Assembly: GCA_013388755.1 (NCBI GenBank)
Contig: JACAEQ010000040.1
Span: 1-43,463, forward strand
From: Chloroflexota bacterium
GTDB lineage: Bacteria; Chloroflexota; Chloroflexia; Chloroflexales; Roseiflexaceae
Length of the DNA: 43,463 nt
Direction: 5' to 3'
Shown here: positions 7,754 through 29,317 of the stretch, one piece after another
Layout of the letters: each line of letters begins with the position of its first letter
How positions within the stretch are numbered: the stretch's first letter is position 1
Notes under the pieces: model-generated
What the model was told of the DNA's origin: nothing
Database searches by the model: none
The model's input: the letters and a program-made list of their open reading frames with translations, nothing else
Program-made: the position numbers and the translations under genes

Positions 7754-10700
7754 ACGTTGTGGTCTCCACTGGTTTCAATCGCGCAAACATCGCAATCGCC
7801 GATTGGACGGTTCGCAACAACTCATCGCCACGAAACGTGCCTTTACGCAATACACGGTTGACCGAGCGGTTCAGGTACTCATGCTTGGCAGTTGTCAGTT
7901 CCCTGGCGCTGACGACAACTATCGGGATCGCAGCGCCGTAGGGCATCGTGCGCAACACCTCGATGAATTCCACGCCATCCATTTCGGGCATCATCAGATC
8001 GAGAATGATCGCGTTGGGCAAGTGGGTATTGCAGGCGTCGAGCGCCTCCCGCCCGTTTGCGGCCTCTACCGTCGCCCATCCATCACGCTCGAACGTACGG
8101 CGCAGATATTCACGCACGTGCTCATCGTCTTCAACGATCAGGACGCTACGCCCCGCACTGGCCGGCGCGCCCTGCTGCTGGCTGAGTAACACAACGATCT
8201 GTTGCTGGAGGCGCTCGAGGTCGACCGGCTTGTTGAGCAGCTCGGCGGCGCCAAGCAGCAGGCCGCGCTGTGGATCATCCTCGACGGTCAGGAGGATCAC
8301 TGGAATGGCGGCGGTTTCAGATGATGACTTGAGTTCAGCCAGTACCTTCCAGCCGTCGATGCCTGGCAATAGGATGTCGAGGATGATGATATCGGGCTGT
8401 AACAGCCGCGCCAGTTCAATGCCACTCAGGCCGTCAGCGGCAGTTTCAATGTGCAGATCGGGGCGGCTTAATGCGCGTGGCAGCAGATTGCGAATAGCCG
8501 GGTCGTCGTCGATCAAGAGTGCGATGTGCGTGCGGTCATCCTCGTGGACGATCACGGCAGTCTGATCGTCTGATTCGGGCACGTCGCTTCGTAGGATGTC
8601 GGTCGCGGCTGCCTTCTGATCCGGCAATGTGACAATGAAGGTTGATCCGACCCCCGGCTCGCTTGTGAGGGTAATCTCCCCGCCGAGCAAGCGGCTCAAC
8701 CGCCGGCTGAGCGCAAGGCCGAGCCCCGTTCCGCCATATTTTCGTGTTGTGGTTGCATCAGCCTGGACGAAATCGTTGAACAGGATGGCGATCTGATCGG
8801 GAGTCATGCCGATGCCGGTGTCGGAGACGGCAAAGGCGATCGAAGCTGCGTGGCCATTATGCGCTGCTGCCTCGGGCGCCGGAACCGGCGCGATCGTTAT
8901 GGTGATCGTGCCGTCCTCAGTAAACTTGCAGGCATTATGCACCAGGTTCAGCAATATCTGGCGCACGCGTGTTTCGTCGGAGTGCATGAGTTGCACGTGC
9001 GGGTCAATATCGAGCGTGATGTGATTGCGTCGCTGGCTGGCAAGCGGTTCAACGGCGCCGATCACGTCGCGCACAAGGTCAGCGACCGAAAAGGATGTTA
9101 TGTGCGTCTGCATGCGACCCGCTTCGATCTTCGAGAGATCGAGCAGGTCGTTGATCAGCGCCAGTAGATGTTTGCCGGCAATATGCACCCGTTCAATATC
9201 GGCAGCGACATTGCCGATCTCGCCACGCGCCATCGCCGTAGCGATCAGTTCGGCATATCCAATGATCGCGGTTAATGGCGTGCGCAACTCATGACTCATG
9301 TTGGCGAGGAACCGGCTCTTCGCGCGGCTGGCCTCGTCGGCGAGTTCCTTGGCTTCGCGCAGTGCCAGTTCGGCCTGTTTGCGTTCAGTGATATTGTGCG
9401 CTACGACCTGCCATGCCGATTGGCCCCGAAAGGTGAGCGGCACCGCGACGAGTTCCAGTGTCACCTCGCTGCCGTCTGATTGCATAAGGTGACACTCGTA
9501 CGGCGTTGCGTCGCGTGTGTGCGGGCGGTGTTCAGATGGCAGAAATGCGGCGGCGGACCGCCCGACCGCCTCGGACGGATTGCTCATGCCGAGCAGGCGG
9601 GCACCGGCCTGGTTGATATACTGGATCTGCCGGCCATCGTGCACGACGATCGGCTCGGGTGCGACCTCGACGAGCTGGCGGTAGCGCGCTTCGCTTTGTT
9701 CAAGTTGCCACGCACTGTGCGCCAGGTCATCCAGCATGGTGTTGATCGAAGCGCCCAGCCGCGAGATCTCATCGTTGCGATCAACGGTCACCCGTGTGAG
9801 CGTGTAATCGGCGCTTCCAATTTGCATAACCTGGGTGCTGAGCGACAGGATGCGCCGTAACACATTGCGTTCGAGAATGATGAGCATGGCGGCTGCGAAT
9901 GCCACTGTGGACAGGAGCAGTACCAGCAGGTAGTAGCGTGTTGCGCTCTGGCCGTACTGATAGATATCGCGCGGTATGTCAACCTGAAGGATGATGCCGT
10001 CGCCGCCACGCAGGTCATCAATGCGTGCATAGCCGGCGATGCGGTCAGATGATAATCGGTGGATCGCTACAGGCGTTTCACCATTGACTATGCGGCGCGC
10101 GACGCCAGGATCGATATCCGATAATGCACCGCTGACAGGAAACACGGTGAGGTTGTCGCCGGTGACCGTGACGATACGCTCGATCTGGGCGGCATCAAGG
10201 TCGCGACCCATCAGCAATGTGCCGTGTGGTGGGCCGTCATAGGCACTGGTCAGAATCGGGCGCGCGGCGATCAGCACTGGTTGCCCGCCGATCATCACCA
10301 GGCCGCTGCGGGCCGCGTCAACCGAATGATGTTGCAACAACACCGCGTTCGGCCCGGCGAACGACAGGAGTTCCACCGGTAACGGCGTCTCGCGCTCTTC
10401 GGCCAGGTCGAACCTGCGCGCGTAAACGAGGTCCCCTGCCGTATTGACGAACGCGACGAACGACAGGCGATTGGAGATAAATGTTTCATCAGCAAAGTTA
10501 GCGGCGATATATTGCGGGTTGCCATCATTCACGAACGCATAGCTGTCGTCCCATCTGGCGTAATCGATCGTCGTGCTATCAAGCGTGGCAAGGTCGCTCT
10601 GGATCGCGTTCAGGGTCTGCGTCACCTCGCTGCGTATATCGCGTTCTTCAAGTTCGAGGAAACTGCGACTGATGATGAACTCTGAGGTCGCCATCAGTAA

Positions 10701-10778
10701 GATAATCAGGCCGGTCAGGGTGGCGACAATGAGGTACAGGGTCTGTGTGCGTAGTGATGTCGGCGAATTCGTGGCCAT
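7731..10778 (-). CDS. CHASE4 hybrid histidine kinase with two receivers
   Basis: A 1015-residue sensor kinase. A membrane segment (~13-38) leads into an extracytoplasmic CHASE4 domain (signature DYARWDDSYAFV), then a second membrane segment, HAMP, PAS (~355-475), and HisKA with His in NMSHELRTPLTA. The ATPase domain shows NLVHNACKF, DTGIGM and GGTGLGLAL. Two receivers follow, with Asp in IIILDILLPGIDG and AIILDLMMPEMDG. The ATG at 10778 has AGGAACG before it; the longer frame to 10874 would overlap the promoter seen at 10846-10874. It heads the minus-strand signalling cluster and overlaps the CheY-like gene. The signal is unknown. Confidence 0.92.
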   Translation of the reverse strand: MATNSPTSLRTQTLYLIVATLTGLIILLMATSEFIISRSFLELEERDIRSEVTQTLNAIQSDLATLDSTTIDYARWDDSYAFVNDGNPQYIAANFADETFISNRLSFVAFVNTAGDLVYARRFDLAEERETPLPVELLSFAGPNAVLLQHHSVDAARSGLVMIGGQPVLIAARPILTSAYDGPPHGTLLMGRDLDAAQIERIVTVTGDNLTVFPVSGALSDIDPGVARRIVNGETPVAIHRLSSDRIAGYARIDDLRGGDGIILQVDIPRDIYQYGQSATRYYLLVLLLSTVAFAAAMLIILERNVLRRILSLSTQVMQIGSADYTLTRVTVDRNDEISRLGASINTMLDDLAHSAWQLEQSEARYRQLVEVAPEPIVVHDGRQIQYINQAGARLLGMSNPSEAVGRSAAAFLPSEHRPHTRDATPYECHLMQSDGSEVTLELVAVPLTFRGQSAWQVVAHNITERKQAELALREAKELADEASRAKSRFLANMSHELRTPLTAIIGYAELIATAMARGEIGNVAADIERVHIAGKHLLALINDLLDLSKIEAGRMQTHITSFSVADLVRDVIGAVEPLASQRRNHITLDIDPHVQLMHSDETRVRQILLNLVHNACKFTEDGTITITIAPVPAPEAAAHNGHAASIAFAVSDTGIGMTPDQIAILFNDFVQADATTTRKYGGTGLGLALSRRLSRLLGGEITLTSEPGVGSTFIVTLPDQKAAATDILRSDVPESDDQTAVIVHEDDRTHIALLIDDDPAIRNLLPRALSRPDLHIETAADGLSGIELARLLQPDIIILDILLPGIDGWKVLAELKSSSETAAIPVILLTVEDDPQRGLLLGAAELLNKPVDLERLQQQIVVLLSQQQGAPASAGRSVLIVEDDEHVREYLRRTFERDGWATVEAANGREALDACNTHLPNAIILDLMMPEMDGVEFIEVLRTMPYGAAIPIVVVSARELTTAKHEYLNRSVNRVLRKGTFRGDELLRTVQSAIAMFARLKPVETTTYGMYPDR

Positions 10779-10845
10779 AGATCGTTCCTGTTGTGGTGTC
10801 CCCTTATCGCATGCACTGGAGCATTGCGGCGTAACCACCCTCATG

Positions 10846-10874
10846 ATACTACGAGGTGGGTTCGTAGCTGTCAT
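10846..10874 (-). promoter_or_regulatory. sigma70-like promoter for the CHASE4 kinase operon
   Basis: On the minus strand ATGACA (10869-10874), a 17-base spacer and TAGTAT (10846-10851) lie about 70 bases before the chosen kinase start. Both boxes match the consensus at most positions. It would drive the run of genes from the kinase towards adenylate kinase. Confidence 0.5.
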
Positions 10875-11031
10875 TGTTCCACGTTACCTCCACATTAGCG
10901 ATTGCCATGCCGGGCGTCAATAGCGGCTACTGTCCATCCGCGTATGAATTCAGTGGGAAAGGCGATCCAGTGGTGATGGAATGTGGTACGATCACGCGGG
11001 AGAACTCGCGTCTGAGTCGCAAGGAGCGTTC

Positions 11032-12648
11032 ATGGCAGCTGACGTTGTTATCAGTGGCGCGCGCCTCGTTGACGGTAGCGGCAACCCCTGGCGCTACGCC
11101 GACGTCGCGCTCGCCGGGGACCGGATCGCCGATATCGTTTCACCCGGCGCCATCCCGTTCGACCAGGTGCACGAGGTGGTTGATGCGCGCGGCATGGTCG
11201 TCTGCCCCGGTTTCATCGATATTCAGAGTCACTCGATCTTGCCGCTGATGATTGATGGTCGCAGCGTTTCGAAGATTACCCAGGGGGTCACCACCGAGAT
11301 CATGGGCGAGGCGTGGACGCCGGCGCCATTCGGCGGCCGGATCGACGATCCGCTGGCGAATGCGCTGTTTGAGCAGCAGATTCCTGGCTGGCCGGAGCGG
11401 ATGCGTAGCTGGCGTCGCTTTGGCGACTGGCTCCGCGCCATGGTCGAGCATGGGGTGACACCGAATATCGGCTCGTTCCTCGGCGGCGGGACGTTGCGCC
11501 AGTATGCATGTGGTATGCGTATGGGGCATGCCGATGCCGATGAGTTGCGTGTGATGCGGCAGGTCATGGCCGAGGCAATAGAAGATGGCGCATTCGGTGT
11601 TTCGTATGCATTGATCTACCCGCCCGACTCGTTTGTTGACACCGATGAACTTGTGGAGGTCTGCCGGGTTGTGGCACACTACCACGGTATCTACATCACC
11701 CATGTGCGTTCTGAGGCCGAGTTGCTGGTCGAATCGATCGGTGAGGCGATCGAGATTGGCCGTCGCGCCGGTCTGCCGGTCGAGATCTACCACCTGAAGG
11801 CGGCCGGCCGGCCAAACTGGCATCGCATGCCGGCGGCCATCCGTACGATCGAGGAGGGGCGCGCGTCGGGCGTGGATGTGACTGCCGATATGTATCCATA
11901 TGCGGCATCGGGCACCGGTCTGAGCGCGATTCTGCCGCCGTGGGCCGATGCGGACGGCAGGCTGTACGAGAACCTGGCGGACCCGGCGATGCGCGCCCGG
12001 ATTCGCGCCGAGGTCCTGGCGCCGGCCGGGGATTGGGAGGCGATGGCACACAATACCGGCCCCGACGGCGTGATGCCGATTGGTTTTCAGAAGCCGGAGC
12101 ACCAGGAATATGTCGGCAAGCGCCTGGCGGAGATCGCCGAGATGCGTGGCCAGCACTGGCTCGATGCCGCCCTCGATCTGTTGCTGGCGGAGCGGCAGCG
12201 GATCAGTACGATCTACTTCTCGATGGACGAGACGAACGTGCGCATGCAACTTGGTCTGCCCTGGATCAAGATCGCAACCGATGCTGGTGGCTACGACCCG
12301 GTATGGGCCGTAGCGCGCGGCCCGGTGCATCCCCGCTCGTACGGCACGTACCCGCGCGTGCTGGGGCGGTATGTGCGCGAAGAGCACGCATTGACGCTGG
12401 AGGATGCCGTGCGGAAAATGTCGTCGGCGGTCGCCGAGCGGTTGGGATTGCGTGACCGCGGCCTGCTGCGCGCCGGATGCTTCGCCGATGTCGTCGTGTT
12501 CGACCCGGCGACAATCACCGACCGCGCGACCTTTGAAGCGCCACATCAGCTTTCGAGCGGCGTGCGTGATGTATGGGTGAATGGGGTGCGTGTGCTGGCG
12601 GATGGCGCGCATACCGGCGCCACGCCGGGTCGCTTCGTTACGCGTTGA
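11032..12648 (+). CDS. N-acyl-D-amino-acid deacylase-like amidohydrolase
   Basis: A 538-residue amidohydrolase (Amidohydro_3, D-aminoacylase group) expected to release D-amino acids from N-acyl forms or act on a related amide. Typical features are the DGSG N-terminus, PGFIDIQSHS, QGVTTEIMGEAWTPAP, VEIYHLKAAG, ATDAGGYDP and HPRSYGTYPRVLGRYVRE. Compared with the characterised Alcaligenes enzyme, the first His of the HxH metal motif is Gln, and the bridging Cys in GNCG is Glu (MGEA). The later His and Asp ligands look kept, so a different metal site or substrate is possible. The ATG at 11032 follows AAGGAG by six bases. HemW lies 62 bases downstream on the same strand. Confidence 0.85.
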   Translation: MAADVVISGARLVDGSGNPWRYADVALAGDRIADIVSPGAIPFDQVHEVVDARGMVVCPGFIDIQSHSILPLMIDGRSVSKITQGVTTEIMGEAWTPAPFGGRIDDPLANALFEQQIPGWPERMRSWRRFGDWLRAMVEHGVTPNIGSFLGGGTLRQYACGMRMGHADADELRVMRQVMAEAIEDGAFGVSYALIYPPDSFVDTDELVEVCRVVAHYHGIYITHVRSEAELLVESIGEAIEIGRRAGLPVEIYHLKAAGRPNWHRMPAAIRTIEEGRASGVDVTADMYPYAASGTGLSAILPPWADADGRLYENLADPAMRARIRAEVLAPAGDWEAMAHNTGPDGVMPIGFQKPEHQEYVGKRLAEIAEMRGQHWLDAALDLLLAERQRISTIYFSMDETNVRMQLGLPWIKIATDAGGYDPVWAVARGPVHPRSYGTYPRVLGRYVREEHALTLEDAVRKMSSAVAERLGLRDRGLLRAGCFADVVVFDPATITDRATFEAPHQLSSGVRDVWVNGVRVLADGAHTGATPGRFVTR

Positions 12649-21412: not shown

Positions 21413-21847
21413 CTACGACGTGACTCGCTCCTCCAGCGGGTCGAGCGCGGCGTTCCAGAGTTTCATGCGTTCGGCGTCGCCGCCAGTGTCAGGGTGATGG
21501 AGACGCGCCATTGCCTTGCGGATGGCGCCGATTTCAGCGGCAGTGAGCGAGAACGGCATGGCACCGATGTTCAGCACCCCCTGCTCGAGGTGCGCGCTTT
21601 CCGCGCGCGCCTTCCACATATCGCGCTCGCGCTCGAGGGCGGCATTCTCGCGGGTAATCTCCACCAGGTTCGCGACCGTTTTATTGTATGCGCGCGCAAT
21701 TTCGGCGTGGCGCCCCTGTTCCTTGCTGATCTGGCGCAACAGGCTACGGATCGTCTGGTGCGCCTCATTGAGTTCGCGCAGTAACCACGCCGGATCCACC
21801 GTCGCCGGGTCAGCGTCGCGTAGTCGGTTATCGTTGCTGGCCACCAT
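21413..21847 (-). CDS. coiled-coil protein with C-terminal J-domain-like segment
   Basis: A 144-residue protein. Residues ~15-95 form a charged coiled coil (LLRELNEAHQTIRSLLRQIS and onward). The last ~45 residues read AEIGAIRKAMARLHHPDTGG followed by DAERMKLWNAALDPLEE. This fits helix II, the HPD loop and helix III of a J domain, the part that stimulates Hsp70 ATPase; helix I is not obvious. A co-chaperone or adaptor role is inference. The start at 21847 is supported by AGGAG and by a promoter ending 35 bases upstream. An upstream GTG/ATG at 21901 would precede the predicted transcription start. Confidence 0.8.
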   Translation of the reverse strand: MVASNDNRLRDADPATVDPAWLLRELNEAHQTIRSLLRQISKEQGRHAEIARAYNKTVANLVEITRENAALERERDMWKARAESAHLEQGVLNIGAMPFSLTAAEIGAIRKAMARLHHPDTGGDAERMKLWNAALDPLEERVTS

Positions 21848-21881
21848 GATCTCCTCGCCGTCGCGCATCTCCTGCACTGGT

Positions 21882-21911
21882 AGTATAGCGACATGACGCA
21901 CTGCACGTCAA
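21882..21911 (-). promoter_or_regulatory. sigma70-like promoter of the J-domain-like gene
   Basis: On the minus strand TTGACG (21906-21911), an 18-base spacer and TATACT (21882-21887). It overlaps the last codons of the MFS exporter gene on the same strand, so the J-domain-like gene can be expressed independently of it. Confidence 0.65.
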
Positions 21912-23193: not shown

Positions 23194-23222
23194 TTCACAG
23201 CGGTTCAATTTGTGAGTATAAT
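23194..23222 (+). promoter_or_regulatory. sigma70-like promoter of the zinc-ribbon protein gene
   Basis: TTCACA (23194-23199), a 17-base spacer and a perfect TATAAT (23217-23222), about 50 bases before the ATG at 23274. On the opposite strand TTGAAC (23203-23208) and TATGAT (23182-23187) with a short 15-base spacer could serve the MFS gene. Confidence 0.65.
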
Positions 23223-23273
23223 TTGTGTTAAGAACTGATTGCATGTCTTGAACATCCAGAAAGGAACACCCAC

Positions 23274-23582
23274 ATGTCGGATCAACCCCTGCATACATTC
23301 AGGCTCCATCGCAGCCACCAGTCAGGGGCGGAGGAATGGATCTGCCCGGCGTGTGGCCGCCGTGTCCTGATCAACCGGCCGCCTTCCTACCAGTGCGTTG
23401 TGCTGGCGGCCGGCGACACGACCGCGGTCCACGTGGGTGGCAGCCCGAGCCGAACAACGGTTGCGCCGTTTCAGCGGAACGGCCAGAAGAGGCCGACTGC
23501 AGCGCCTGATGAGCCGGGTGACGTGGCAATCACCGACACGCTGTTGCCATGGATTCGCTGGATGGAACAGGCCGGCCTCTAG
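23274..23582 (+). CDS. small protein with a CPxCGR zinc-ribbon-like motif
   Basis: A 102-residue protein. EEWICPACGRRVLINRPPSY followed by QCVVLAAGDTTAVHVGG has one CPxC knuckle plus a later Cys and His, as in half of a zinc ribbon. The tail (after ~65) is low complexity and then TLLPWIRWMEQAGL. I recall similar short proteins in Chloroflexota, without a function. AGAAAGGAAC lies before the ATG and the promoter is strong. Tandem hairpins follow the gene, so it is probably a single transcript apart from the protease operon downstream. Confidence 0.75.
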   Translation: MSDQPLHTFRLHRSHQSGAEEWICPACGRRVLINRPPSYQCVVLAAGDTTAVHVGGSPSRTTVAPFQRNGQKRPTAAPDEPGDVAITDTLLPWIRWMEQAGL

Positions 23583-23817: not shown

Positions 23818-24471
23818 ATGGCAGTCGCAGCCGCAAGACGTGAACTGGTCGTACCGGCAGGCGCCAGAGCGGAAGCAGCCGTCGAACCGCAGGTAGAAGA
23901 ACTGCAGGCAGCCGTTCTGGCGCAACTCGAGGCAGCGTATGAAGAGGCAAAGGCGCGTCCGATGCCGCAGATCGCCGCGCCGACACGCTGGTGGGATGTA
24001 CTGGCGATCGGGCCATTCTCGGCGCCGTTCGATCTTGGCTTTCCCAAGCCCAATCCAATCGTTCAGGTTGGCCAACCGATCACAATCTTTGCCGTTCTGT
24101 TCCTCAACCCAACACTGCCAGGAGTCGTTCCGCCGACGCCCAATCCCATTCCCGGGTCGTTGCTGCCCTATCGGATCATGTATGACACAACCAATGTGAC
24201 GACGGCAACTCATGATGCTGCCTTGAGTGGCACGATCAACGGCAACCTGGCGCCAGTACTGTTCATTGTCCGGCCGATCACGCTGACGCCCAACCAGGCA
24301 GGGTTATACGAGCTCAATCTGCGTGCGCAGATCCTGACGGCGATGAGCACGACAATGGTACCATTCGCCGGCTATGCCTCGCGCATCGATCAGATTGATG
24401 CCTCGATCTTCGGCCCGAACGGCCTGGTGGTTCGTTTCGAGCAGCCCGTTCGCTTTGATGCATACGTCTGA
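23818..24471 (+). CDS. beta-rich protein of unknown function, first gene of the protease operon
   Basis: A 217-residue protein with no signal peptide. A helical N-terminus (to ~50: EPQVEELQAAVLAQLEAAYE) is followed by a Pro-rich, beta-strand-rich body (GQPITIFAVLFLNPTLPG, then NLAPVLFIVRPITLTPNQAG and LYELNLRAQIL). The last part has the spacing of an Ig-like or C2-like sandwich and faintly resembles the end of the helix-hairpin-helix protein in the same operon (GRYQLIVAALL). AGAAAGGGG lies before the ATG at 23818. The protease gene starts 84 bases after its stop. Function unknown. Confidence 0.78.
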   Translation: MAVAAARRELVVPAGARAEAAVEPQVEELQAAVLAQLEAAYEEAKARPMPQIAAPTRWWDVLAIGPFSAPFDLGFPKPNPIVQVGQPITIFAVLFLNPTLPGVVPPTPNPIPGSLLPYRIMYDTTNVTTATHDAALSGTINGNLAPVLFIVRPITLTPNQAGLYELNLRAQILTAMSTTMVPFAGYASRIDQIDASIFGPNGLVVRFEQPVRFDAYV

Positions 24472-24555
24472 TAACGTGTTGTCGGCATGATTGTGGCAGG
24501 GGCGCAGCATCCTGCGTCTCTGCCGCGTTCCCGCAGTTGCACATGGGGAGGGGGC

Positions 24556-25587
24556 ATGTGGAGTGAAGAACGATCGCGCGCAGTGTGGGCGCGTATGGTA
24601 CTCCGCCAGATCGCACCAGCGTTTCTGTATGATCCCAGGTATCGCGTCAACGTGATTGATTTTGGCCTGCCGGAGCGCCAGCAGTCAACCGATGAACGCC
24701 CAACCTTACGCTTCCACGTGACCGAAAAGATGTCCGAACACCGGCTCGAAAGCGCCGGAATCGAAAGGGTACCGCGGCAGATCGGCGAATTCACCACCGA
24801 TGTGATCGAAGGAGTATATTATCCCCAGGTATGGCCATGGTGGCCAGCGGTGCAGCCTCCCGCTGGCAGTCCACAGTCGCGTTTTGAGAAGTTGCGCGGC
24901 GGGATCAGCATCTCGGATGTCCGGCATATCAGCGCCGGTACGCTGGGTGGCCTCGTGCGCGATCGCGCGACTGGTGAGGAGATGATTCTGAGCAACTGGC
25001 ATGTGCTGGTGGTTGAGTGGTGGGCACGCCCGGGATTACGGATCTGCCAGCCAGGGCGCCTCGACGGTGGCTTGCCACATGATGTGGTTGCCAGGTTGAC
25101 GCGCGATGCCATGCGCAGCGGGCTCGATGCAGCGGTCGCAACGTTGACCGGTCATCGAGCACTGATCAACGACCAGCTCACCCTTGGCCCGGTGGACGGC
25201 GTTGCGCGGCCCGAACTGGGTATGCAGCTTGTGAAAGCGGGGCGAACTACAGGGGTCACGCACGGGATCGTCACCGGTATTGAGGGATATGCCCGATTGT
25301 GGTATGGTTCCGTGCAACGGGTCATCCGCCATGTTATGACCATCGTTCCAGCGGTGACGAGGCGCGATGTGAGTAAAGCGGGCGACTCAGGCTCCTGGTG
25401 GCTCGATGAAGCAACGAACAACGCCGTTGGCCTTCATTTTGCTGGAAGTGACAGTCCTGAACAGGGATTGGCCATGGATATGACCGCTGTGCTCGATGCG
25501 CTTGGTGTGGATGTCGTCACTGAGCGTCCCCTGCCCGCGGCGCGACGCTGGATCGAAGCGGCAAGAATGGAGGTCATGCGACGATGA
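24556..25587 (+). CDS. trypsin-like serine protease with N-terminal accessory domain (NAL1-like)
   Basis: A 343-residue protein. Residues ~29-92 form an accessory domain (VNVIDFGL, RFHVTEK, VPRQIGEF, DVIEG), the kind found before the protease in NAL1-like peptidases. The chymotrypsin-fold domain carries a complete triad: His149 in LSNWHVL, Asp191 in GLDAAV and Ser278 in AGDSGSWW. The GRTTGVTHGIV strand is typical. No secretion signal is seen, so it is probably intracellular. The ATG at 24556 follows GGGGAGGGGGC. It overlaps by four bases (ATGA) with a gene for a stand-alone version of its own N-terminal domain, which suggests coupled, stoichiometric production. Substrate unknown. Confidence 0.88.
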   Translation: MWSEERSRAVWARMVLRQIAPAFLYDPRYRVNVIDFGLPERQQSTDERPTLRFHVTEKMSEHRLESAGIERVPRQIGEFTTDVIEGVYYPQVWPWWPAVQPPAGSPQSRFEKLRGGISISDVRHISAGTLGGLVRDRATGEEMILSNWHVLVVEWWARPGLRICQPGRLDGGLPHDVVARLTRDAMRSGLDAAVATLTGHRALINDQLTLGPVDGVARPELGMQLVKAGRTTGVTHGIVTGIEGYARLWYGSVQRVIRHVMTIVPAVTRRDVSKAGDSGSWWLDEATNNAVGLHFAGSDSPEQGLAMDMTAVLDALGVDVVTERPLPAARRWIEAARMEVMRR

Positions 25588-25823
25588 CCGTTCAAACACA
25601 AGAGTGGTGGGAACGGGCGCGACGAGCGCGCGATCAGTTGATCGCGCGCTTCGGTACGCATCCGTCGGTGACCTTGATCGATATTGGTCTTTTCAATCCA
25701 CCGCGCGCCCGTATCGCCGGGGTGCGGATACACGTTCGCGACAACCCGCAGGAACTGGATGTTCCGGAGACTATCGACGGTATTCCCGTGCGGGTCGTAT
25801 CCGGTGACTTTCAATTGCAGTAA
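25584..25823 (+). CDS. 79-residue stand-alone copy of the protease N-terminal domain
   Basis: A short protein that starts inside the stop of the protease gene (ATGA overlap). Its core VTLIDIGL, VRIHVRD, VPETIDGIPVRVVSGDF lines up block by block with protease residues 31-92 (VNVIDFGL, LRFHVTE, VPRQIGEFTTDVIEG). The helical lead-in (WWERARRARDQLIARF) resembles protease residues 2-20. It lacks any protease domain. It may bind or inhibit the protease, replace its N-domain in a complex, or bind the same target. The similarity is seen; the role is inference. Confidence 0.8.
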   Translation: MTVQTQEWWERARRARDQLIARFGTHPSVTLIDIGLFNPPRARIAGVRIHVRDNPQELDVPETIDGIPVRVVSGDFQLQ

Positions 25824-25837
25824 GAAAGAGTTTCTCC

Positions 25838-26944
25838 ATGGCATCGCTTGATGTACCGCCGCCAGGCGACGGGCAGAGCGAGAGCGACAGGGCGCGTGAA
25901 TCCGTCTGGAATGAGCGAGCTGCGTTTCGCCTCGCGATCGAGTCGCGCGATATGGGTGCCGGCAGGCTCACCTGGCGTACGCGCGCCTATCACGAAGAAC
26001 GCGACTCCAGTATGGTGTGGACGGGATTGCCGGATGATGCGTTCATCGAGTGGCTGCGCGGCCAGCTTCATCAGTCGCTTGGTTTTGCGCTCGTCTCGCC
26101 CGATGAGGCCCCGGCCAGGATCGTGAAACCCGAACCACCCGCCCAGGAAGAGGCCGCCCGGGTCGATGATCTTGAGCAGATTTCGGGGATCGGTCCGGCG
26201 ATTGCGCGCCGCCTGTATGCCGCAGGAGTCAAGACATTCGCGGCGCTGGCCGGGAGTTCGGTCGAAGATCTCGCCTCCTGGACGGGGCGATCGGTGGAAC
26301 AGATTGCGCGCATGGAATGGATCGAACGCGCGCGTAAGCTCGCGGGCGCGGAGGAACCTTTGCAGGCGCCCGGCGAGCCGGCACGCGAAGATGGACCGCG
26401 TGAAGAGCATGAAGCAACGCGTATAGTGTTCGCCGCAGTGTTGCTCAATGAAGATGGCGATGTCGTTGATACGATGCTGCTGGATGTTGATGAAGAACTG
26501 CCGATTGACTGGCAAGGCGGACGCGTCGCGCAATTCTTCACGGAGGTTGCATCGGATCGTGAACGGCGTGAGGGCGCACCCCGCAGCCTGGCGCTTGATG
26601 ACTCACAGGTTGAGACCGTCAAAGTGGCAGGCAGTCACGATACCTACCGGCTGCGCGCGACAGCGCATGTGTGCGTCGAACGGCTCGACCTGGCACAGGT
26701 GGTCAAAGAGGGCACGACATGTCGCGCATTTCTGCTTGGGTACAGGCTCGACAACGGCCAGACATCAGTGTTGAATGCTGTGAATGTGCGGTTCGAACCA
26801 GGTGAGATGGAAGCTCCGCTCGTCATTGATGCAGCATTACCGGATGTTGGAAGGTACCAGTTAATCGTCGCTGCCTTACTGACTGACAATGGCGCAGTGA
26901 GTGCGGTCTCCGGCCCGGTGCTGCGCGTGACGCCGGGGCGCTGA
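25838..26944 (+). CDS. helix-hairpin-helix protein with beta-rich flanks
   Basis: A 368-residue protein. The N-terminal ~75 residues are a small alpha/beta domain (AAFRLAIESRDMGAGRLTWR). Residues ~108-170 form a helix-hairpin-helix unit of the DUF4332/HhH_5 sort (DLEQISGIGPAIARRLYAAG, KTFAALAGSSVEDLASWTGR). The remainder is a beta-strand-rich region ending YQLIVAALLTDNGAVSAVSG. HhH units of this type often serve as DNA- or protein-binding modules. The start lies 14 bases after the 79-residue gene, so all four genes from 23818 form one operon. Its 3' end is followed immediately by mobile repeats. The function is unknown. Confidence 0.82.
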   Translation: MASLDVPPPGDGQSESDRARESVWNERAAFRLAIESRDMGAGRLTWRTRAYHEERDSSMVWTGLPDDAFIEWLRGQLHQSLGFALVSPDEAPARIVKPEPPAQEEAARVDDLEQISGIGPAIARRLYAAGVKTFAALAGSSVEDLASWTGRSVEQIARMEWIERARKLAGAEEPLQAPGEPAREDGPREEHEATRIVFAAVLLNEDGDVVDTMLLDVDEELPIDWQGGRVAQFFTEVASDRERREGAPRSLALDDSQVETVKVAGSHDTYRLRATAHVCVERLDLAQVVKEGTTCRAFLLGYRLDNGQTSVLNAVNVRFEPGEMEAPLVIDAALPDVGRYQLIVAALLTDNGAVSAVSGPVLRVTPGR

Positions 26945-26954
26945 TGCTTGTTAC

Positions 26955-27061
26955 GAGCCTATCCGAATTGTGGACTGGCTGTCATTGCGAGCGAAGCGAA
27001 GCAATCTCCTCCCCCCGGCGGGGGAGGTTGGGCAGGGGGCTGTGCGGTGCGCCAGGCCTTA
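26955..27061 (+). mobile_element. chimeric MITE remnant (family A left end joined to family B end)
   Basis: It begins with the family A terminus GAGCCTATCCGAATTG and continues with the family A interior (TCATTGCGAGCG, GAAGCAATCTCC). At about 27015 it switches to sequence that matches the reverse complement of family B (CCGGCGGGGGAGG to GGGGGCTGTGCGGTGC, ending CCTTA). The last three bases, TTA, are the target duplication of the intact family A copy that follows. It looks like a recombined or nested insertion. Confidence 0.75.
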
Positions 27062-27219
27062 GAGCCTATCCGAAAACCAGATGGTCAATGTCATTGCGAG
27101 CGCGAGCGAAGCAATCTCCTCTCGCGCCGGTAGATTGCTTCAGCCACGCTTCGCTCGCTGCAGGCTGTCGCTGGCGCTCCTCGCAATGACAGCATGCCCA
27201 TGGGTTTTCGGATAGGTAC
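27062..27219 (+). mobile_element. MITE family A, copy 2 (158 bp, intact, TTA target duplication)
   Basis: The best-preserved copy: ends CCTATCCGAAAACC (27065-27078) and GGTTTTCGGATAGG (27203-27216), flanked by TTA at 27059-27061 and 27220-27222. The same length as copy 1, in the opposite orientation. The interior holds TCATTGCGAG / CTCGCAATGA arms, so the transcript would fold into a long hairpin. There is no coding capacity. The motif TCATTGCGAGCG...GAAGCAATCTC is, to my knowledge, common in unrelated bacteria. Confidence 0.88.
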
Positions 27220-27278: not shown

Positions 27279-29048
27279 TCACGGCGACGTCTTTCCGTCC
27301 CTCCCGGCGGTAACGCGTCGAAAGAAGGTTTCGAATTCATCGGACGGGCGCAACCCGAGCTGGCTCCGAAGGTTTCCTACACAGACCTGGTATTGCCGTA
27401 CCGCCAGCTGGCGCAACCCCTGCGCGACATAACAACCGATCAGCATCCGGTGAGCATCTTCGTCACAGCTATCAAGCGCCAGTGCACGCTGGCTGAACAT
27501 GATGGCCGCTGCAAAGTCGCCACGTTCGTGGTAGGTGCGCGCCAGTTGATGGAGTGCCTCAAGATTCGCTACCTGTAATGCTGTCCGTCGCTTTTCTGCC
27601 CAATCTTCATAGCGATCCTCTGCCATATAGTCGCCACGATAGAGATCGATCGCGCGGCTGTATGCGAGCAGCGCGGCGGCGGTGTCTCCATTGCTCCAGA
27701 ATGCGCGCGCCGCGCCGATCGATTCCTCGAAGTCTTCGGAATCAACCCATAACGGTACCTCCGGCGCCAGCATATAGCGGTCGTTCGCAAACTGAATGAT
27801 CGGCGTCGAGCCGGCATAACGCTTGAACGTCTGCCGCAGGCAATAGACCGCCTGGTGCAGGCTACGCCGGGCCAGTTCCGGTTCTGAGTCGGGCCAGAAT
27901 TGCGCCGCAAGCAGGTCTTTCGGCGCCGGCATATGACGATGGGCGATCAGGAAGCGAAACAAAGCACGCGAACGAGCTCCTTCCCACTGATCGATCAGGA
28001 CGTCATCGTAGTAGACACGTAGTTCGCCAAAGGTATAGACCGTCAGACCAGGTTGATGACGCACCGGCTGGTCTTCCGCGACCGGATCAGGAATCGTCGC
28101 TGCGGATGGATGCGGCAGACCTGCAATCGCGGCATGCTCGATGGATGACTCGCGATCGTCGAATGCGTTTTCTTCCTCAACGGATGTTTCCTGTTCGGGC
28201 GTCGCGTCTTCTTCGGTTTCTGCATCCGCTGCTGGAAGATCCTCTTTCCCATTGGCCCGCTCCACGGTGACCGCTGGTTCGGATGGAGCATATTCATTGT
28301 CAGGCGATACACTGGTGTGCCGCTGAACCGTGAACAACGATTGCAACCAGTGGATGAGGCGGTTCCCCAGCGAAGCGTGCGATACCCGTTCGGCAGGCGG
28401 CGGCAACAACGCTGGAAGTGCCGGATGTGGTGCAAGGTCGACCCATAACGTGGTCGGCTCCGCTTCGTGGGCGCCGGAGAGTCGGATGGCATCCGCAAGG
28501 CAGCGTATCAAATCTGCATGCGCTTTAACGATGGCCGCTTCACCTTCGCTTCGTCCGATCCGGCTGCCGGCGACTGCCTGCTGCCAGCGAAGGATCTCAG
28601 CGCAAATCTGTGCCGCCGCGGCCAGCAACCCGCCCGGCGGCGCCGTGCCGATGTCATCGAGGCACACCTGCGCTCGCTGCAGATAGGTTTTGCCGGTTTC
28701 GTAGTCGCCGAGGCCAAGCGCAATAATGGCTGTCTGCCAGGCGACGATACCGCACGCCAGCGGATCATCGAGTTGTTCGGCAGCGGCAAGCGCGGCGAGC
28801 GCGCGGGCCAATGCCAGCGGCGCCTGCCCCTCGCGCCAGTGAAGTTCTGCCTGAGCCGCGAGGGCGCGCCATTGGCCGCTTGCGTCATCATCAGTGCGAA
28901 ACATGGCTTCGGCTTCGGCAAGCAACACAAGCGCCGAGGCGCTTTCATGGCGGGTCAGCAATTCCAGCGCCTGGTGGTATGCCGGCCAACCGGATCGCCG
29001 GTCGGCTATGCGAAGTGTCTCCACAGGCGGTATTCGATAATGCGTCAT
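27279..29048 (-). CDS. TPR-winged helix-BTAD transcriptional activator
   Basis: A 589-residue regulator. The first ~180 residues look like TPR-type helices (YHQALELLTRHESASALVLL, WRALAAQAELHWREGQAPLA). An acidic, low-complexity linker (~250-330, rich in Glu) follows. The OmpR-type winged helix (~340-430: VYTFGELRVYYDDVLIDQWE, ARSRALFRFLI) and a bacterial transcriptional activation domain (~440-580) come last. In classical SARPs the winged helix is at the N-terminus, so this order is reversed. The ATG at 29048 has AAAGGA eight bases upstream; a GTG at 29252 has none. The likely promoter at 29318-29346 would leave a 263-base leader. Targets are unknown; no regulated operon is obvious nearby. 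Confidence 0.87.
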   Translation of the reverse strand: MTHYRIPPVETLRIADRRSGWPAYHQALELLTRHESASALVLLAEAEAMFRTDDDASGQWRALAAQAELHWREGQAPLALARALAALAAAEQLDDPLACGIVAWQTAIIALGLGDYETGKTYLQRAQVCLDDIGTAPPGGLLAAAAQICAEILRWQQAVAGSRIGRSEGEAAIVKAHADLIRCLADAIRLSGAHEAEPTTLWVDLAPHPALPALLPPPAERVSHASLGNRLIHWLQSLFTVQRHTSVSPDNEYAPSEPAVTVERANGKEDLPAADAETEEDATPEQETSVEEENAFDDRESSIEHAAIAGLPHPSAATIPDPVAEDQPVRHQPGLTVYTFGELRVYYDDVLIDQWEGARSRALFRFLIAHRHMPAPKDLLAAQFWPDSEPELARRSLHQAVYCLRQTFKRYAGSTPIIQFANDRYMLAPEVPLWVDSEDFEESIGAARAFWSNGDTAAALLAYSRAIDLYRGDYMAEDRYEDWAEKRRTALQVANLEALHQLARTYHERGDFAAAIMFSQRALALDSCDEDAHRMLIGCYVAQGLRQLAVRQYQVCVGNLRSQLGLRPSDEFETFFRRVTAGRDGKTSP

Positions 29049-29317
29049 CGCTGCAATCCTTTCAATGGCGCCTGATGCGCATTGCAGCGCACGTTGCCGT
29101 ACATCGCGGCAAGAACGAGGATCGAACGTAGGGGATGAGAATAGACGAAAACCGGCTACCTGATCATCGAGCGCATCGTTCAGGCAAATAACCGGCAGCC
29201 CTGCACGGCAGGCAGTGGAACGAAAGCATACGATTCGTGGGTCGTCAGGCACGCCAGTGGCGGGAGTGTGGTGCCGGGTGGAGCGCCGGTATCTGATCGA
29301 ATGCTATGGTCATATGT
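29049..29317 (-). other. long leader or upstream region of the BTAD regulator gene
   Basis: About 270 bases between the predicted transcription start (~29311) and the chosen ATG. The regulator frame stays open through it to a GTG at 29252, giving a Cys- and Arg-rich extension (VCFRSTACRAGLPVICLND) with no ribosome binding site. It is either a long untranslated leader or an unusual N-terminal extension. Confidence 0.4.

Follow-up and report, generated by a model that had tools for sequence, protein, structure and literature searches.

What does a trypsin-like protease that shows no secretion signal do in a bacterial cell, and with which proteins does it work? The question is raised by four consecutive genes, A to D, in a contig of a Roseiflexaceae genome (Chloroflexota) with a length of 43,463 nucleotides, hereafter called the window, i.e. 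the whole stretch of DNA that was analysed (Table 1). The operon in the window is best read as an apparently cytoplasmic, regulated proteolysis module of effector type. For the module as such, we assign a probability of about one half to regulated, apparently cytoplasmic proteolysis organised as a fixed core (A, D, usually Z, and the BTAD/TPR regulator) with an exchangeable peptidase slot.

Table 1. Features of the protease operon and its surroundings in the window
Feature	Coordinates	Strand	Description
Inferred promoter	23211..23268	+	Conserved -10 region (TATAAT type) and ribosome site GAAAGGAAC ahead of Z; 6 relatives aligned
Z	23274..23582	+	102-aa Zn-ribbon-like protein; fifth conserved member
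A	23818..24471	+	217-aa beta-rich protein; first gene of the operon, module marker
B	24556..25587	+	343-aa NAL1-type serine protease
C	25584..25823	+	79-aa protein; stand-alone N-domain of the protease type (NAL1_N-like)
D	25838..26944	+	368-aa protein with DN, HhH and Ig/FN3-like C-domain
BTAD/TPR transcriptional regulator	27282..29252	-	SARP-like; convergent with the operon; linked and co-occurring

The coordinates and spacings of the four genes given by a sequence-only reading of the window were all reproduced. A gap of 84 bases separates the stop codon of A from the ATG of B, the ATG of C at 25584 overlaps the TGA of B at 25585–25587 to form ATGA, and D starts 14 bases after the stop codon of C. 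A longer reading frame of B (start at 24487, 23 additional residues) is a mechanical ORF only; the start at 24556 is preferred since it is preceded by a GGAGG-like, purine-rich ribosome site and agrees with the start positions of the relatives. The dN/dS values of A, B, C, D and Z were 0.09–0.34 (0.10–0.31 for A–D in all tested pairs), and on these values all five genes are under purifying selection, so that C, with its 79 residues, is a real gene. In one related locus (L035, from an assembly of low coverage), the reading frame of C contains one stop. No signal peptide was visible by eye in A, B, C or D, in agreement with the earlier reading. The region between D and the BTAD gene (26971–27214) carries a repeat element of CATTGCGAGCGAAGCGAAGCAATCT-type sequence with inverted arms; its core GCGAAGCAATCTCCTC has 59 copies in the genome, compared with 0 for the reversed control. 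A 162-residue protein with a J-domain-like end (LHHPDTGGD) is encoded at 21413–21901 on the minus strand and is kept beside the module in Roseiflexus.

The wider profile (A11) was run on 82 genomes of the filamentous Chloroflexales and detected A in 15 of them, with 16 loci in total. A peptidase gene adjoins A at all 16, and D follows wherever the contig extends far enough. The first A profile (A1), applied to 400 Chloroflexota genomes, matched nine and left the other 391 without a hit; these nine are precisely the genomes in which the close form of B occurs (E < 1e-60). The order A-B-C-D is kept in Roseiflexus and in the more distant loci L041, L036, L037 and L185, and from B on in L038. Since this order recurs in other genera at protein identities of ~20–79% (down to ~20–30% for A and D in the distant operons), it is conserved far beyond chance. 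The conserved unit of four genes around a NAL1-like protease, which had been proposed from the window alone, was thus recovered across genera, and the homologues are not rarely found together. Strong matches to the profile of the D C-domain were obtained only in carriers and in one congener (G370).

The operon lies on the chromosome, and its neighbourhood in Roseiflexus (MFS, J-domain-like and BTAD genes) is stable across species. Loss or transfer is common, because the carriers are scattered among genera without the module and related operons occur on contigs labelled KSB1 (L039) and Gammaproteobacteria (L036), these labels being used as given and unchecked. B alone is not specific for the module, as NAL1-type proteases that stand alone are frequent both in Chloroflexota and in viral contigs. 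At 59 viral-contig loci with relatives of B, A was not found and the D profile gave a single marginal match (L103, E 0.03). In these same loci (L098–L156), C does not occur beside a full-length B, and some of the proteases are fused to other domains, e.g. SpoIID in L121. An origin of the operon from a phage or a plasmid was considered and rejected, as B had no match in phages and A none in plasmids; only remote relatives of B were present in plasmids.

The four genes stood as a unit, but two further members, Z and the BTAD regulator, had been overlooked. Z has a conserved CPxC and a later H. In Roseiflexus and in the window it is found upstream of the operon and on the same strand; in L041, L042, L040, L038, L183 and L163 it is found downstream and on the opposite strand. 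Its profile gave strong matches in 8 of 40 genomes of the order, all of them carriers, and Z belongs to the conserved module despite its changing position. The BTAD gene immediately precedes A in G094, G198, G433, G435, G420, G421 and L036. It adjoins the module at 11 loci and is clearly non-adjacent only in G166 (~76 kb from the module), the remaining loci being contig ends. BTAD matches at E < 1e-100 were found in 10 of 60 genomes and G420 matched at 1e-57, all of these being carriers; the matches in other genomes were at ~1e-43 or weaker, i.e. a strong orthologue (E < 1e-50) was present in carriers only. The BTAD/TPR regulator, too, is a member of the conserved set.

B consists of a NAL1_N-like N-domain (residues ~1–88) and a trypsin-fold domain (~110–323). 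Its triad H149, D191 and S278, described earlier as complete, is invariant across 19 aligned relatives. When the profile built from these 19 rows was compared with the PDB, rice NAL1 was matched at E 8.8e-17, followed by proteases of the alpha-lytic/streptogrisin type. The AlphaFold2 model of B (pLDDT 87.8, pTM 0.87) aligned with the NAL1 structure 8pmi with Z 28.0 and 3.5 Å over 300 residues at 18% identity; model residues 7–326 corresponded to chain residues 92–449, the N-domain included. The protease part alone reached Z ~21–22 with bacterial trypsin-fold/alpha-lytic-type enzymes. B of the window scored 16 bits with Pfam Nal1_C, below the curated cut-off of 26.1, and 10 of the 19 relatives matched this family at E ≤ 0.1 (best 4.8e-11). 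As its score is under the cut-off, B, as modelled, is called a divergent bacterial relative of NAL1 which has the NAL1 fold and stands outside the curated Pfam family.

This likeness brings in housekeeping turnover, in which B and its adaptors would degrade a transcription regulator or an envelope-assembly factor, as NAL1 does in plants with TOPLESS-type corepressors. NAL1 is the nearest solved fold over the whole length of B, the link to BTAD suggests conditional expression, and maize NAL1a degrades REL2 (PMC12915138). However, A is absent from 67 of the 82 genomes of the order, so that the module is not essential, and its V8 and M36 replacements (see below) argue against the cutting of one fixed substrate. 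We regard a housekeeping function as rather unlikely.

C was confirmed to be what it had been taken for, a stand-alone N-domain of B. The iterated profile seeded from C collected the N-domains of B and of its relatives and matched that of B itself at E 6e-24, which places both in the same domain family. One of the adjacent small proteins in alignment A5 matched Pfam NAL1_N at 7e-9. Small N-domain proteins also adjoin more distant relatives of B in L049, L053, L060 and L047 and, as judged by eye, in L045 and L051; in the viral contig L108, the N-domain and the protease are encoded by two separate adjacent genes. The stand-alone N-domain is, by these cases, a recurring theme.

The suggestion that C controls the protease did not hold as a rule, since C is missing from the operons of G094, G198 and G435, and the proteases of G094 and G198 keep the full triad in the aligned rows. 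As some operons with intact proteases have no C, it is not an obligate antitoxin, and this role was rejected as a rule. A toxin–antitoxin pair, with B as the toxin and C inhibiting it like a propeptide in trans, would be in agreement with the membership of C in the N-domain family of B, with the ATGA overlap of the two genes and with the separate neighbours in L108. The operons lacking C and the fact that B retains its own N-domain speak against such a pair, which we consider improbable.

D is built of a DN domain (beta-beta-beta-alpha, residues 30–84), an HhH domain (112–170) and a C-terminal beta-sandwich (~250–364). The HhH domain reported earlier is real (HHH_5 match, E 7.9e-10). In the model of D (pLDDT 81.7, pTM 0.55), the C-domain is similar in structure to Ig-like domains as they occur in GH2 enzymes and in the Brr2 Sec63 unit (Z ~10, 2.5–3.1 Å, ~100 residues), and Foldseek matched it to CARDB; the modelled fold is a common one and indicates no function. 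The D proteins of L041 (G347) and L036 gave no HhH match and kept the Ig-like C-domain, the order of DN and HhH is changed in L037 and L038, and DN is doubled in L041. For D, a fragment alignment (A8) was used in place of the alignment (A7) that contained the relatives whose domains have changed places. D is thus a mosaic, the C-domain being the part common to all. Target recognition by HhH, as had been proposed, does not apply generally, and HhH as a universal targeting part was rejected because some D proteins are without it. A gave no match in a Pfam search and no credible relative in a profile search for solved structures; the probability of homology between A and the Ig domain of D was only 4.6% by hhalign.

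The description of the locus as a protease operon was correct as far as it went but it overlooked the exchange of the peptidase. The slot is occupied by a NAL1-type protease in the window, by a V8-like protease in G198 and by an M36 metallopeptidase in G420. The partner of A in G420 is a chain of 1063 residues in which M36 fungalysin is combined with a P-domain, HhH and the D C-domain, and this fusion is flanked by Z and BTAD. A second cluster of G198 has the order BTAD, HhH-D, V8/trypsin-type protease, A, HhH-D and a second such protease; the first protease has Asn at the expected triad Asp, and the second looks intact (by eye). This paralogous cluster (L071:3571-12530, G198:C9) has a large BTAD regulator and also includes a CarboxypepD_reg protein. 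Different peptidase types on one core, together with one fusion, constitute the strongest evidence that D would work with the peptidase. Since the peptidase in the slot can be replaced by another type, A and D look like a fixed adaptor core. A second B-type protease, fused to a lytic transglycosylase, follows D in L039; at 10144–11853 of this KSB1-labelled operon, the protease is followed by a probable membrane helix and then by the lytic transglycosylase (SLT) domain. We tentatively extend these observations to a polymorphic peptidase system, in which the invariant core of A, Ig-like D, Z and BTAD/TPR might arm and target interchangeable peptidases inside the cell for immunity or programmed death, or export them independently of a signal peptide.

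Peptidases of the V8-like and M36 types are as a rule secreted, yet those found here show no signal peptide by eye. This would fit non-Sec delivery, with A and D as packaging or export partners of a signal-less peptidase, e.g. in a contractile injection system, and the contractile-injection marker Pvc16_N was above the cut-off in 7 of 11 carriers. However, the near-complete carriers G323, G395 and G347 are without Pvc16_N, some non-carriers possess it, and it is never together with the module in any carrier; such delivery is very unlikely. The more specific candidate, a contractile-injection cargo, was rejected on account of the missing linkage and imperfect co-occurrence. Contractile injection systems are frequent in these genomes, two Pvc16_N matches being present on contig C93 of the genome of the window, and in L165:7176-14584 (G403:C65) a BTAD regulator adjoins contractile injection genes (sheath, Pvc16_N).

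In a tree of 61 B-type proteases (midpoint rooting, several solo rows on long branches), the 16 A-linked rows were found on one side of a branch with a support of 100/99 and in 200 of 200 bootstrap trees. The neighbours of this clade (100/97) were two Endonuclease_NS-fused proteases from Tsukamurella and Rhizobium plasmids, the only two NucA-fused rows in the tree. A trypsin-like peptidase coupled to a NucA endonuclease constitutes System 3 of Kaur et al. 2020, a computationally predicted conflict system (PMC7159879). The earlier surmise of a link to conflict systems was strengthened by this sister branch. B may be a conflict or programmed-death effector related to System 3, released by infection or stress to cut essential or invader proteins, with the cell being killed or arrested. 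The exchangeable effector slot, the patchy distribution and the transglycosylase-fused second protease of L039 point in the same direction. Against this, the window operon has no recognised NTPase (STAND/AAA), EAD, nuclease or membrane effector, PADLOC defence models gave no match at E ≤ 1, Endonuclease_NS was not found in A–D, Z or the BTAD gene, dN/dS is low, the neighbourhood in Roseiflexus is stable, and System 3 itself is only predicted. A conflict effector in this strict sense is possible but doubtful.

If the operon encodes a regulated cytoplasmic proteolysis module, the TPR/BTAD protein would sense a signal and switch the operon on. Plant NAL1 forms oligomers and, judging from the fold, B could likewise assemble through its N-domain. 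D would use its Ig-like C-domain to link the peptidase with a target or a scaffold, a tethering role supported by the one natural D–peptidase fusion, and DN and HhH would be the recognition parts that vary. C might tune B by exchanging with or capping the N-domain of B, and would be non-essential since some operons are without it, whereas A would be a constant subunit. Most likely, host or invader proteins would be cut by B as part of a response to stress or conflict; the stable Roseiflexus neighbourhood and the chromosomal location would also fit a housekeeping role. Bacterial NAL1-type proteases gain a defined set of partners by these findings, and a core that stays the same while its peptidases are exchanged suggests a general means of arming and aiming proteases. 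The tie to the nuclease-fused relatives makes a conflict role directly testable. Being a natural stand-alone NAL1-type N-domain, C could suggest how plant NAL1 is controlled.

A description of this operon was not found in the literature within open-access coverage. The A-D-Z-BTAD core with an exchangeable peptidase is new with respect to the literature searched, whereas the protease family and its nuclease-fused relatives were already known. B is similar to plant NAL1 (NARROW LEAF 1), a regulator of growth (Pfam NAL1_N PF25608, Nal1_C PF25819), in the full fold with the N-domain, in the profile match and in the triad; it differs in being bacterial and encoded in an operon with A, C and D, in its weak Pfam scores and in the extra stand-alone N-domain of the window operon. 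In the trypsin-Trypco1/Trypco2 systems, a trypsin-like peptidase is likewise accompanied by a small partner gene, but C is of the NAL1_N-like type and no vWA-MoxR-VMAP genes were recognised beside the operon (PMC7159879). The Trypco models of Pfam gave no match with C and D at E ≤ 1, such an absence being weak evidence. The operon shares with System 3 the peptidase-centred multi-gene design, and proteases of its sister branch are fused to Endonuclease_NS; in contrast, components of the NucA, EAD1, Death-like or STAND type were not recognised among the genes of the window operon, and A, D and Z do not appear in the sections of that paper that were consulted (PMC7159879). The regulator resembles SARP/AfsR-type BTAD regulators in its Trans_reg_C, BTAD and TPR domains, but differs from them in that no NTPase domain was matched and in that it is tied to the module by both linkage and co-occurrence.
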